Made by a program: the position numbers and the translations under genes
Assembly: GCA_018820315.1 (NCBI GenBank)
Contig: JAHJOQ010000159.1
Coordinates: 1-37,965 of the forward strand
Direction: 5' to 3'
DNA length: 37,965 nucleotides
Source of the DNA: Candidatus Zixiibacteriota bacterium
GTDB taxonomy: Bacteria > Zixibacteria > MSB-5A5 > JAABVY01 > JAHJOQ01
The notes under the pieces: model-generated
Databases searched by the model: none
Seen by the model: only the letters and a program-made list of their open reading frames with translations
What the model was told of the DNA's origin: nothing
Shown: piece by piece, positions 29,143-34,506 of the stretch
Layout: every line of letters starts with the position of its first letter
How positions within the stretch are numbered: position 1 is the stretch's first letter

Positions 29143-29172
29143 AAAAAAAGCGGCTCCCTATTAACGGAGCCG
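29143..29172 (-). terminator. Rho-independent terminator of the lipoprotein pair
   Basis: On the minus strand CGGCTCC, loop, GGGAGCCG, followed by CTTTTTTT. It lies 30 bases past the stop at 29202. Confidence 0.9.
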
Positions 29173-29201: not shown

Positions 29202-30350
29202 TCAGAATATCAGATCGTCTTCACTCTGGCCGGTGTCCCTGGCACGTTTAAATTCGACAGTCCACGTCCCATCTACAAATTTGCCCCTGGCAAAAAGATC
29301 AGCCGCAGATTTGGTCGGGTATGTCGCAATCGCTCCCGGAATGGTTGATCCAAACAGCCACGCCGGATTGGTCAGTTCGTATCCCTTCACCTCCCACTCG
29401 TCCATAGGATTGGAAGCGCTGGCGTTCGGGTCTTCCTTGTGTTGATAGATCGGAACACGAGTCGGAAAGGTGGTGCGATTCATGACGTTCTCTATGTAGA
29501 CCGGCTGTCCATCATCTGTCAAGTAACCGGTCAGACCACCTACCGATGCACTCTGAACGAAGGCATCCTTTCCATAGCCGTGCGGATTGGTTGTGACCGA
29601 TCCCCACTCCCATGCGTCGAGCCTGGTAGTGTCGATAACGGTAAACATTCCAGTCGCCTGATCAGCGTGACACGCTATTCCGCAACCATCGGTCTCCCAA
29701 CCGACAATATCCTCGAAACGTCCCCGCATGAACCAGAATATGGATACTCGGTCGTCGATCTGAACAGCATCCCTGGCCATGACAGTATCCAGAATGGTGC
29801 TCGATCCCTGGGCACGCAGCGTGTCCCTGAATGTCCACATCCGGTAAGCGTCATTTGCGCCGATTGCAAACGGAACAGGGCCGTCGCTGGCTACCTCATC
29901 CCACTGAACCTGTAGATAAATATAATCCTTGTCGTATGCTGCACGCATTCTCGCGTTGACAATGAAATTGTCTCTGCTGCCTGTACGGCCGAGCACTATG
30001 TCTGCCAGTGGCACATTCCAGACATTTTCGCCGTCATCAATGCCGTCGATAATTGGCGGAACCTCGACACTATCCATAATAACCGTGTTGCCGTCCAGGT
30101 CGGCGTCCTGATCGGATGTCATTAGCACAGTCGCGTTGCCATTATGAGCGTCACCGCGGCCGTTGAAAACCGCCACGGAGAAAATCCTGTCTTCGGGCAC
30201 AGGAATCGAATAGTCGTTTCCGGGATCTCCGGGATCACCATCATCGCCTGTCAGTCCGGCAGGTCCCTGGTTTCCCTCGCAACCGAGGAGAATCAAAATG
30301 ATTCCCAGACACAGGAGGCTCACAAGGCTGAATATCAGTTTAGCTTTCAT
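29202..30350 (-). CDS. Lipoprotein: collagen-like linker plus EB_dh-type domain with CxxxCH
   Basis: 382 residues. The lipobox is ILILLGC (Cys24). It is followed at once by Gly-X-Y triplets (GNQGPAGLTGDDGDPGDPG, about 26-46) and then a beta-sandwich domain. The domain opens with VPPIIDGIDDGENVWNVPL, goes on with MRAAYDKDYIYLQVQWDE, and ends with WTVEFKRARDTGQSEDDLIF. This layout matches the heme-binding subunit of ethylbenzene dehydrogenase-like enzymes (EB_dh; heme b held by Met and Lys in the known case). A motif CGIACH (223-228) is a CxxxCH, one residue longer than a heme-c site, and could bind heme or metal (inference). It is the second of two genes, 12 bases after its sister, and probably sits on the periplasmic face of a membrane. 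A terminator follows. Confidence 0.8.
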   Translation of the reverse strand: MKAKLIFSLVSLLCLGIILILLGCEGNQGPAGLTGDDGDPGDPGNDYSIPVPEDRIFSVAVFNGRGDAHNGNATVLMTSDQDADLDGNTVIMDSVEVPPIIDGIDDGENVWNVPLADIVLGRTGSRDNFIVNARMRAAYDKDYIYLQVQWDEVASDGPVPFAIGANDAYRMWTFRDTLRAQGSSTILDTVMARDAVQIDDRVSIFWFMRGRFEDIVGWETDGCGIACHADQATGMFTVIDTTRLDAWEWGSVTTNPHGYGKDAFVQSASVGGLTGYLTDDGQPVYIENVMNRTTFPTRVPIYQHKEDPNASASNPMDEWEVKGYELTNPAWLFGSTIPGAIATYPTKSAADLFARGKFVDGTWTVEFKRARDTGQSEDDLIF

Positions 30351-30362
30351 TTCAACCTCCTG

Positions 30363-31457
30363 TTAGAACTTGACGTCGTCGCCGTGACCGGTATTGCGGA
30401 GTCTTCTGAATTCCATCGTCCATCTGTCGCCTGCTCCCGGATTCCATGAATCTTTGCCGCTACATTCGATATCCGCACGACCGCCGGTCGGCATCACAGA
30501 AACAAAGCCGATGATGGTTGCATTGTTGGGCCACTTCAGGCTCACATTGAAGGGAACTGTATTCCAGAGCTGGAACGGAGGAGATATGTCTTCTCCGGCC
30601 GCGAGTATGCCGTCTTTGTGCATCCACCTCGGTAGTGAGTCGAAAACGTTATCAACATAACCCGCACTTCCGTGATCGTCCTGAACACTGGGCGTTGCGC
30701 CTGTAATGTACTCGTCATCAAAATACCCGATGAGACCTGTTCGTCCAGCCTTCCAGTGCCATACATCGACAAGTCCTGAACCTGACAGGTATAGGGTGCT
30801 ATCATCATCGTGGTAGAGGAGGTCAGAGCCGTTAGCCGCCCACCCGTCAACTCCGGAGATATCCCAGAACAAGTACATCTGGTCTTCAGTCACCGGCTGA
30901 CGTGACCATGTACTATCACGGCCAATGACTTGAAGTCTCCATCTGCCGGGGAACCAGTCGGCAGTGGCCGCAAGACCCTGACTGGCATCCACGATCTCTT
31001 GCCATGAGACCATAAAGTAGATGTATTTGTCGTCATAGCCAGCTCTTATGTCAGCAAACGAAATCCGATTATCAATTCCGCGCAAATTCGTGAGCGGTAT
31101 CGAGGAGATCGTAAACTCGTCGCTGCCCCAGTCTTCAATACCCTGATCCTGACCGTCGATTACCGGTGGTTTGTCGAGTTTGTAGCAAACCACAACGTCT
31201 TCAGAGGGCTCTGCGCTCTGATCGAACGTGAGCCTTATCTTGGTGTTCCCATTCTGGTTAAACTCAGAGTTATTGGTAATGGCTAGACCGAAGATCATGT
31301 CGCCGGGCGGATCAGTGGAAGCATCTCTTCCGTCCGCGCCGTCATCACCCTGAGCACCCTGCGATCCCTGCGGACCTTGATCTCCTTCACATCCAAGGAA
31401 GCTCAACATAAGAAGAGCCATAAGCAGGCTCAGTGCTGTTCCGAAAACTCTGGACAT
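30363..31457 (-). CDS. Lipoprotein: collagen-like linker plus EB_dh-type domain
   Basis: 364 residues. The lipobox is LSFLGC (Cys23). The linker GDQGPQGSQGAQGDDGADGR (25-44) is a Gly-X-Y run, as in bacterial collagen-like proteins. The domain has KPPVIDGQDQGIEDWGSDEF, a YDDKYIYFMVSWQEI strand set, and a WTMEFRRLRNTGHGDDVKF end that aligns with its sister gene. Unlike the sister it has no CxxxCH, so the pair may split roles. It begins a two-gene operon, with 12 bases to the sister gene. It may be a periplasmic heme- or redox-ligand protein; no enzyme partner is seen here. Confidence 0.78.
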   Translation of the reverse strand: MSRVFGTALSLLMALLMLSFLGCEGDQGPQGSQGAQGDDGADGRDASTDPPGDMIFGLAITNNSEFNQNGNTKIRLTFDQSAEPSEDVVVCYKLDKPPVIDGQDQGIEDWGSDEFTISSIPLTNLRGIDNRISFADIRAGYDDKYIYFMVSWQEIVDASQGLAATADWFPGRWRLQVIGRDSTWSRQPVTEDQMYLFWDISGVDGWAANGSDLLYHDDDSTLYLSGSGLVDVWHWKAGRTGLIGYFDDEYITGATPSVQDDHGSAGYVDNVFDSLPRWMHKDGILAAGEDISPPFQLWNTVPFNVSLKWPNNATIIGFVSVMPTGGRADIECSGKDSWNPGAGDRWTMEFRRLRNTGHGDDVKF

Positions 31458-32487: not shown

Positions 32488-32937
32488 TCAGAATAGTCGG
32501 AACGAGAATATCTTCCACTGATCGTCGATGCGATGTACACCCATCTTATTATAGTACTGTTTTACAGGCACCGATTCCTTGTCGATAAACGACACCTCGA
32601 CTGTCGCAGTATCTCCAAGAGTAGCAACACTTCCGACAATTATCTGATTCTTCAGCCATTTCTCTCGCACACTCCCCCCCTCCTGAAGGAGACTTACAAG
32701 AAGCACCTTATTTTCCGCAGCATAAAGCGAAGAATCATAATTGTAGATCGAGTTTTCCTTTACCAGTTCATCGAGATCGAGCAACTGGCTCAGATAGTCG
32801 TAGCTTGTTGTATCCTGACGGAGAGATTGCAGAAAGTGCATTACAGTCTGGCGTGGTTCGGGATCGTCGGAGCAGGATGCCGCTGCAATCGTCAGCAGAA
32901 TGAGTAGCAGGAGACCTGTGACTGTCCGCCGAGTCAT
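32488..32937 (-). CDS. Small lipoprotein with DUF4878-like fold
   Basis: 149 residues. The lipobox is LTIAAASC (Cys22), followed by SDDPEPRQTVMHFLQSLRQD, a typical first helix of NTF2-like DUF4878 lipoproteins. The last segment VSFIDKESVPVKQYYNKMGV and DDQWKIFSFRLF is the usual terminal strand. No active-site residues are evident. It lies 9 bases after the PorV-like gene, so it is likely in the same operon and may be an outer-membrane companion. Confidence 0.75.
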   Translation of the reverse strand: MTRRTVTGLLLLILLTIAAASCSDDPEPRQTVMHFLQSLRQDTTSYDYLSQLLDLDELVKENSIYNYDSSLYAAENKVLLVSLLQEGGSVREKWLKNQIIVGSVATLGDTATVEVSFIDKESVPVKQYYNKMGVHRIDDQWKIFSFRLF

Positions 32938-32946
32938 CGTTTTGCC

Positions 32947-33963
32947 TTACCAGCGGCTTGATATTGCGATACGATGGCTGCTGCCAATGTCCGCATATGG
33001 AATGAATGCATAATCGAATACTAACTTCTTGAGTAGTATCCCGAGCCCAAAAGAGAGTCCTGCCCAGTTGTCCTTGTCTGAATCGGTCTTGTAATTCTTG
33101 CCAATTGTCGAATAACCAGCCCGGACAGAGAGCGGTTGAAACTGCACAAGATTCAGGCCCGCAGACAGGTAGATATCATTATCAAACGGCTTTACAACAT
33201 CGGCAGAGACAATCAGCGGCGCAGCCTTCAGCTGATGACCTATTCCAGCTCTCAATATTGCGGGAAGCGCATCCTTGTGCTCCTGCGACAGCGATCGCAT
33301 TTGGAATCCGAGATTGCTGGCTGAGACTCCAAGGCGGGTTCGATTGTCACTGAGGCCGTGAACAAGCCCAAGATCGACAGCCAGCGCGTCCGAGTTGTAC
33401 TCATCAAGGCTCTCATAAATGAACTTCCCAGTCAATCCAAGACTTAATCCGCTCCACTGCCGGGGGACACCGTTATCATCATACTGATTGCCTTCGTTGT
33501 CATAGCCATTCTCGGAATCGCCAGGCCATCTCCAGGCTGCGGTGACAGATAGAGCTATGTCACTTCCAGAGAAATCACCTTGAATTTCAGCATCGACATC
33601 AGTTCTGGTTATGGAACCGTAGTCAACATAATTAATGGCAAATCCGAGTTTCGCTCTCTTGCCCCAGGGAGCTATGTAGCTGAGAAACCCACCCTGAATA
33701 CCGGCGACATAGTTGTTGTAGCTCGCGGATACTGCAGATCCGGGGATCTGCGTGATTCCGGCAGGGTTATAGTAGAGCGCAGATTCATCATCGGAGAGTC
33801 CCGTATATGCTCCGCCCATCGCGGGAGCTTTGGCTCCGACAGGGACCTTCAGAAAGGAATAGGCGTAGGTGCCTGCCTTCGAATTGATCGCAGAGGCATC
33901 CGAATGACAGGCTGCCAGCAGCAATATGCACATCAAAACTACAATCATTTTCCGTTCAGTCAT
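32947..33963 (-). CDS. PorV/PorQ-family outer-membrane protein
   Basis: 338 residues. An export signal (MIVVLMCILLLAACHSDASA) precedes the opening motif SFLKVPVGAKAPAMGGAYTG, and LSDDESALYYNPAGI follows, both diagnostic of the PorV/PorQ group. The remainder is a 14-strand-like barrel (KLGFAINYVDYG, WSGLSLGLTGKFIYE, LSVRAGYST, HRIAISSRW) with a terminal Trp. Such proteins are outer-membrane barrels in the type IX secretion field, but many members occur without T9SS genes. None are in this window. A possible lipobox (LLAAC) within the signal could lipidate the N-terminus. Confidence 0.88.
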   Translation of the reverse strand: MTERKMIVVLMCILLLAACHSDASAINSKAGTYAYSFLKVPVGAKAPAMGGAYTGLSDDESALYYNPAGITQIPGSAVSASYNNYVAGIQGGFLSYIAPWGKRAKLGFAINYVDYGSITRTDVDAEIQGDFSGSDIALSVTAAWRWPGDSENGYDNEGNQYDDNGVPRQWSGLSLGLTGKFIYESLDEYNSDALAVDLGLVHGLSDNRTRLGVSASNLGFQMRSLSQEHKDALPAILRAGIGHQLKAAPLIVSADVVKPFDNDIYLSAGLNLVQFQPLSVRAGYSTIGKNYKTDSDKDNWAGLSFGLGILLKKLVFDYAFIPYADIGSSHRIAISSRW

Positions 33964-34008
33964 TTTCTCATCCTGTTTTCAAAGAGGTCTATTTAAGCAC
34001 CAATCATC

Positions 34009-34506
34009 TCACCAGTCTCTTATTGTGAGATTAACAATATCTTCAGCCGCTTTCGCTATCGCTCTGATCTTGCCATCCTCCTCAGTCTCACTATCGGCAC
34101 TATATATACCATACGCATTCAGGGCAGCTTCTTCCCAGACAATTGTGCCATCGGTTTTGGACAAGTTGACATTCACCGTGATATTAACCTTGTATTCCTG
34201 TACCTGATCGTTCTCATCGTAAGTATATGCGACACGGTCATATCGTGTTATCGTCCCGTTGAGAATTGCGTCGGCGTTCGACTTCGGTATCACCTTCAGC
34301 GTGTTGTCAGACACAAACTCGTCAATGACACCCGATGTAAGCTCCTCTGCAATACCGAATTCGACAGACTTATTCTCGAAAACCGGGACGGCGATAGTCT
34401 CAATACCGGACCTCATGGAACCGGAGAAAGAGTAGATGCCGCATCCGGCAAGCACAAGTGCCAGTATAATCACTAAAATGGAATTTTTCACCTTCAAAAG
34501 CACCAT
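34009..34506 (-). CDS. lptE: LptE-family LPS-assembly lipoprotein
   Basis: 165 residues. The lipobox is LVLAGC and is followed by GIYSFSGSMRSGIETIAVPVFENKSVEFGIAEEL, the standard opening of this family. LptE plugs the LptD barrel and helps deliver LPS to the outer surface. The C-terminal half (VKVNITVNVNLSKTDGTIVWEE) is beta-rich. The presence of lptE is consistent with a Gram-negative outer membrane. It lies between hutI (47 bases upstream) and the PorV-like gene (45 bases downstream), so a shared transcript is possible. Confidence 0.88.
   Translation of the reverse strand: MVLLKVKNSILVIILALVLAGCGIYSFSGSMRSGIETIAVPVFENKSVEFGIAEELTSGVIDEFVSDNTLKVIPKSNADAILNGTITRYDRVAYTYDENDQVQEYKVNITVNVNLSKTDGTIVWEEAALNAYGIYSADSETEEDGKIRAIAKAAEDIVNLTIRDW

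Follow-up and report, generated by a model that had tools for sequence, protein, structure and literature searches.

The window analysed here (the whole stretch of 37,965 nucleotides from a Candidatus Zixiibacteriota bacterium) contains two adjacent genes for sister lipoproteins, in each of which a lipobox cysteine is followed by a short collagen-like stub and an EB_dh domain. The EB_dh domain is circularly permuted: the β-hairpin that is C-terminal in canonical members is now N-terminal, just past the collagen stub, a feature that was overlooked in the first-pass annotation of this DNA. A heme ligand signature is present in one member of the pair only. The design, with its permutation, c-type signature, lipidation and collagen stub, is real, conserved and moderately surprising, but it is no wholly new system. 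Its best reading, which we hold to be somewhat probable, is that a monoheme-c electron carrier with a lipid anchor is accompanied by a partner lacking heme.

The gene pair and its neighbourhood

The upstream gene (type 1; 30363..31457, minus strand; 364 aa) and the downstream gene (type 2; 29202..30350, minus strand; 382 aa) are separated by 12 nt, and each is preceded by a strong AGGAGG-like ribosome site. An intrinsic-terminator-like hairpin (29151..29172, minus strand; CGGCTCC...GGAGCCG) lies 3' of the downstream gene and is followed by a T-run (CTTTTTTTG), closing the two-gene operon that had been proposed. Sigma-70 promoter matches near the pair are at chance level only. Sequence identity between the two proteins, which are paralogs, is 30% (E = 2e-41).

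The query P0001 turned up homologs in 16 of 58 relatives, and the query P0002 did so in 30 of the phylum's 133 genomes, many of the weaker matches being other EB_dh proteins or proteins with the stub only. The pair is found in the same order in every searched genome of family f1 (four) and of its sister family f2 (four), that is, in 8/8 searched genomes of the order; in three genomes of a further Zixibacteria family, f6, three genes stand in tandem instead, ordered type 1 - type 3 - type 2. The conservation that had been named as support for the pair is thus present. Types 1, 2 and 3 form a single Zixibacteria clade (SH-aLRT 99), and the copies therefore arose by duplication within the phylum.

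The widely kept gene order is HutI - LptE - outer-membrane protein - small lipoprotein - EB_dh pair - glyoxalase - HAD - ComM-like ATPase. In the window, the genes for LptE, the outer-membrane-protein-like product and the small lipoprotein occupy 32491-34506, and their order beside the pair is kept in two Zixibacteria families and in f6; the outer-membrane-protein-like product is PorV-like by eye and has no Pfam match. A functional link of the pair to these neighbours (HutI, LptE, the PorV-like protein, glyoxalase, HAD, ComM-like ATPase) was considered and rejected. Their order is conserved but they show no redox theme, and the conserved order is therefore treated as old synteny. A redox gene was found beside the pair in none of the Zixibacteria genomes examined. 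As the first-pass annotation had it, no molybdo-enzyme adjoins the pair: none is encoded among the 22 window proteins scanned, and no genes for molybdo- or FeS subunits occur in the window or in the conserved neighbourhoods. Molybdopterin oxidoreductases are present in the same genome, away from the window.

Lipid anchor and collagen-like stub

The lipobox cysteine is Cys24 in the downstream protein (30279..30281, minus strand), where it is invariant in 11/11 orthologs, and Cys23 in the upstream protein (31389..31391, minus strand), as read from the sequence and the alignment. In both proteins a conserved cysteine ends an LLGC/FLGC motif after a hydrophobic helix, and both may be classed as lipoproteins with predicted acylation. 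Shortly behind it stand seven consecutive, uninterrupted Gly-X-Y triplets, at residues 26-46 of the downstream protein (30213..30275, minus strand; GNQ GPA GLT GDD GDP GDP GND, with invariant Gly columns) and at residues 25-45 of the upstream protein (31323..31385, minus strand; GDQ GPQ GSQ GAQ GDD GAD GRD). The lipobox and triplets noted earlier in both proteins are thus borne out.

The Pfam Collagen scores of 16 and 17 bits lie below the cut-off of 27.2, so that neither protein has the long Gly-X-Y tract of a Pfam collagen member. The stub is nevertheless not a chance occurrence, because an unbroken run of 6, 7 or 8 triplets is present in 24/24 readable homologs, in which Pro accounts for 28% of the X and 22% of the Y positions. 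The stem is short, and its seven triplets would span approximately 6 nm if a triple helix forms. Bacterial collagen-like proteins such as Scl and Lcl share the Gly-X-Y repeats (weak matches), but with 6-8 triplets the pair and its homologs fall short of the Pfam and NCBIfam cut-offs, and they have another anchor and head domain.

Within the genome of the window a clear Gly-X-Y stub is confined to this pair. A marginal third match (E = 0.17) was seen at G000:C59:32543-32632 (L095), in a 207-aa frame directly upstream of a multiheme cluster on contig C59.

In a profile search against the PDB, the N-terminal stub region weakly matched MtrC and MtrF, decaheme outer-membrane surface cytochromes in which a lipobox is likewise followed by a Gly-X-Y-like stub; these differ from the pair, whose EB_dh fold would hold one heme at most, in carrying ten hemes in other folds. 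In a sister Zixibacteria genome the same stub is carried by L062, a multiheme cytochrome that has an MtrC/F-like domain. The pair is therefore not alone in joining a collagen-like stub to a redox lipoprotein, and for this feature there is precedent. In the available literature, of which coverage was partial, no paper was found that relates EB_dh to collagen-like proteins or lipoproteins in the way seen here.

Fold and circular permutation of the EB_dh domain

The known role of EB_dh is that of b-heme subunit in molybdo-enzymes. Both proteins match the profile PF09459 well above its curated cut-off of 33.3 bits (59.4 bits downstream, 55.8 bits upstream), and the EB_dh-like domain described previously is thereby substantiated. 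The core comprises residues 99-382 of the downstream protein (29205..30056, minus strand), as delimited by the profile match, an AlphaFold2 model and Foldseek, and residues 95-364 of the upstream protein (30366..31175, minus strand), as delimited by the profile match. The AlphaFold2 model built for the downstream protein has a pLDDT of 80.9 and contains no heme; its top Foldseek matches are EbdC of ethylbenzene dehydrogenase (2ivf_C) and NxrC of Kuenenia nitrite oxidoreductase (7b04_C), both with probability 1.00. NxrC was also matched at 2.6e-7 in the profile search against the PDB; phmmer matches of single sequences to the PDB were too weak to use. The pair shares with EbdC and NxrC the beta-sandwich, the W-x-W region and the terminal WTVE..R..T...D motif. 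Unlike these subunits, the Zixibacteria proteins are permuted, lipid anchored and without adjoining molybdo-enzyme subunits.

The permuted hairpin comprises residues 53-78 of the downstream protein (30117..30194, minus strand) and approximately residues 52-78 of the upstream protein (31224..31304, minus strand; from alignment and a rotation test), and corresponds to the hairpin found C-terminally in canonical EB_dh and in NxrC. In the profile alignment residues 53-78 fall on NxrC 285-310, which in NxrC come after the rest of the match, and an HMM of the unpermuted C-terminal hairpin falls on residues 52-77 in 11/11 type 2 proteins. When the hairpin is rotated to the C-terminus, the domain score exceeds those of all ten shuffled controls in 11/11 type 2 proteins and in 7/7 testable type 1 proteins of f1 and f2; in type 1 proteins of f6 a gain over the shuffled controls was not seen. 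The PF09459 match ends at about 206-218 of 236 in permuted proteins, as against 227-235 in most canonical ones, an exception being a canonical EB_dh paralog of the same genome with a match ending at 218. In the pair it ends at 208-215, so that the canonical strand order, in which the profile is matched through its end, is not found.

The models agree with the alignments. The hairpin strands are at 55-62 and 68-78 in the downstream model, as against 324-333 and 344-352 in that of the unpermuted paralog from the same genome. The latter model (pLDDT 70.9) aligns to EbdC with a TM by target of 0.63, as against 0.40 for the permuted downstream model; the poorer alignment of the more confident model is to be expected, because the permutation disturbs sequential alignment.

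Permuted EB_dh lipoproteins without collagen occur in Coatesbacteria, in 13/14 of the genomes that have EB_dh, and the permutation needs one change on the tree. These proteins (L091, L108-L119) resemble the pair in being lipoproteins with the same permutation, CX3CH and the hairpin His, but they lack the Gly-X-Y stub and are mostly single-copy, with no pair. No description of an EB_dh permutation was found in a partial literature search that was not aimed at permutation.

Candidate heme ligands, proposed function and alternatives

The downstream protein contains the motif CGIACH (CX3CH; residues 223-228; 29667..29684, minus strand), a candidate site of covalent heme c attachment with His228 as candidate proximal ligand. 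The motif is invariant in 11/11 type 2 orthologs and absent from types 1 and 3, which agrees with the earlier assignment of a CxxxCH to one protein only. His69 (30144..30146, minus strand), on the permuted hairpin, is likewise invariant in 11/11 type 2 proteins and is the candidate distal ligand. Model confidence is low at residues 229-233, adjoining the motif. The Cys..CysHis motif of c-type cytochromes with a distal ligand is thus present in type 2, with atypical spacing, and not in type 1. Neither CX3CH nor the His is present in types 1 and 3, except that two type 1 proteins of f1 keep the His alone, and the upstream protein and the third paralog are, judged by their sequences, probably heme-free.

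CX3CH is a non-canonical heme attachment motif, and it has been described as such in ImcH and some CymA homologs (PMC6295460). Among 61 readable EB_dh rows from several phyla (the His of L122 being counted within three columns), the hairpin His accompanies CX3CH in 42/42 rows, as against 3/19 rows without CX3CH. Fisher's test, based on 3/18 rows without CX3CH and ignoring relatedness, gives 1.5e-11. The tree-aware test points in the same direction but is not significant (2.8 concordant pairs versus 0, p = 0.25), and with only about 3-5 independent changes it has little power. The first-pass annotation had taken the motif for an extra; across the aligned sequences it instead characterises a broad, c-type-like subfamily of EB_dh as a whole. 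The unpermuted members of this subfamily (in Zixibacteria, KSB1, Calditrichota, Bacteroidetes and others, including the own-genome paralog L003/L077) share CX3CH, the hairpin His and the fold with the pair, and several are also lipoproteins; they differ in their canonical strand order, in the lack of a collagen stub and, in some, in fusion to b561, multiheme or T9SS-tail domains.

Several members are linked to cytochromes by fusion or position. In a Zixibacteria relative (L016) a Pfam-confirmed cytochrome b561 domain is fused to a CX3CH EB_dh, in Calditrichota a multiheme cytochrome c is fused to one (L122; L123 also has many CXXCH motifs), and in a KSB1 genome a CX3CH EB_dh gene adjoins genes for Rieske, cytochrome b and cytochrome c proteins. 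L122 and L123 combine multi-CXXCH cytochrome c, CX3CH EB_dh and a type IX secretion tail. DOMON and EB_dh presumably belong to one superfamily. L016, L017 and L018, all b561-CX3CH EB_dh fusions from Zixibacteria relatives, have a layout resembling that of the eukaryotic CYBDOM proteins, which consist of cytochrome b561 and DOMON (PMC10784552). CYBDOM proteins are alike in this pairing of domains and in having a DOMON-type heme beta-sandwich at the cell exterior, but their heme is b-type and they have no collagen stub. We know of no permutation in CYBDOM proteins.

The host encodes the means of heme c maturation (three matches to PF01578, cytochrome c assembly), as well as multiheme cytochromes and a heme-copper oxidase (C155). 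In the C59 cluster (L146:3384-10037) cytochromes with 11 and 9 CXXCH motifs and a cytochrome b occur together with a 531-aa protein that has no Pfam match and is probably an outer-membrane barrel, and with a lipoprotein that has 5 CXXCH motifs and weakly matches an MtrC/F domain; the cluster looks like a porin-cytochrome conduit. On C143 (L147:1155-4372) adjacent proteins with 16 and 26 CXXCH motifs lie near a 728-aa protein without Pfam match. The C59 cluster, the C143 multiheme proteins, which are very large, and the C155 oxidase are candidate exchange partners of the pair.

A c-type, probably bis-His, heme accounts best for the downstream protein because of CX3CH together with His69, their co-occurrence, the cytochrome fusions and neighbours, the precedent of the motif in ImcH and CymA homologs and the assembly proteins of the host; its cofactor is thus likely, on these residues, to be a covalent c-type heme with two His ligands. 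Heme ligation of the ethylbenzene dehydrogenase type is not supported. The b-heme of NxrC is ligated by Met155 and Lys305 (PMC8387239) and that of EbdC likewise by Met and Lys (PMC8840923). That both proteins carry b-type heme in this manner would accord with the common fold family and with Met235 of the downstream protein (29646..29648, minus strand), which aligns at or near the axial Met of EbdC and NxrC and is kept in type 2 of f1 and f2. Position 235, however, is Met in 8/11 and His in 3/11 type 2 orthologs, the His being that of f6, and types 1 and 3 have no Met there; the position of Lys305 falls in the relocated hairpin, where Ala/Thr or other residues stand in the Zixibacteria proteins. 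The Met/Lys pair is thus conserved in neither protein, and in the downstream one CX3CH and His take its place. Moreover, b-type rows with Met/Lys (L104, L125, L129) are without CX3CH, the two classes being mutually exclusive in the sample. A b-type pair is accordingly considered very unlikely. Met235 was also set aside as a general distal ligand, many CX3CH rows having no Met and all having the hairpin His.

The main rival is a heme-free pair of CBM9/DOMON-like surface lipoproteins binding sugar or polymer, with CX3CH as a disulfide or metal site. EB_dh and CBM9 share a fold (weak CBM9 matches), redox neighbours are absent, and types 1 and 3 keep the fold without the ligands, which implies another use for the scaffold. 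But EbdC and NxrC outscore CBM9 in both profile and structure searches, and the exact C-x3-C-H spacing with its co-occurring His across several phyla, as well as the fusions of CX3CH EB_dh to cytochrome domains, speak for heme; the heme-free reading is judged unlikely. A heme-based gas or redox sensor on a stalk would suit a low-redundancy pair of lipoproteins with one heme domain and no enzyme partner. No conserved signalling gene was found beside the pair in the neighbourhoods compared, however, and the predicted six-coordinate His/His heme fits electron transfer better than gas binding, which makes a sensor most improbable.

According to the monoheme-carrier reading, duplication inside Zixibacteria would have given two outer-membrane-type lipoproteins in one operon, each with a lipidated Cys, a rigid short Gly-X-Y spacer of 6-8 triplets and a permuted EB_dh beta-sandwich. 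In the downstream protein CX3CH would attach a single heme covalently, His228 and His69 would be its proximal and distal axial ligands, and the protein would serve as a monoheme c-type carrier or relay, raised above the membrane by a few nanometres. The upstream sister would have lost the ligands and act as a heme-less docking or scaffold partner. Tethering at the surface is plausible by analogy with the lipobox and stub of MtrC and MtrF. A single heme is a poor long-range conduit, which counts against an electron carrier. Of the two heme carriers originally envisaged, one probable carrier is left: the downstream protein has the CX3CH and His signature, and the upstream protein has no plausible heme ligands.

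The survey points to a large separate EB_dh branch in little-known phyla, marked by a c-type heme signature, lipid anchoring and the absence of a molybdo-enzyme; in one part of this branch the chain order is rearranged. Should heme binding be confirmed, this would be a new cytochrome type for Zixibacteria, Coatesbacteria and relatives, and CX3CH with the hairpin His would be a simple annotation signature separating heme-c, heme-b and heme-less EB_dh.

A wider proposal, quite unlikely in its entirety, is that covalent bis-His c-type permuted EB_dh proteins exist in at least two candidate phyla and that in Zixibacteria they form a surface electron relay on a hetero-oligomeric collagen stem with heme-less sister chains. 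The stem would consist of one heme-bearing chain and one or two heme-less ones, from two genes in f1 and f2 and three in f6. The stubs of type 1 and type 2 are acidic (net charge -1 to -3), and those of type 3 in f6 (L072, L073, L074) are Lys/Arg-rich (net charge -1 to +1); such differing stub charges in f6 might suit a hetero-oligomeric stem.
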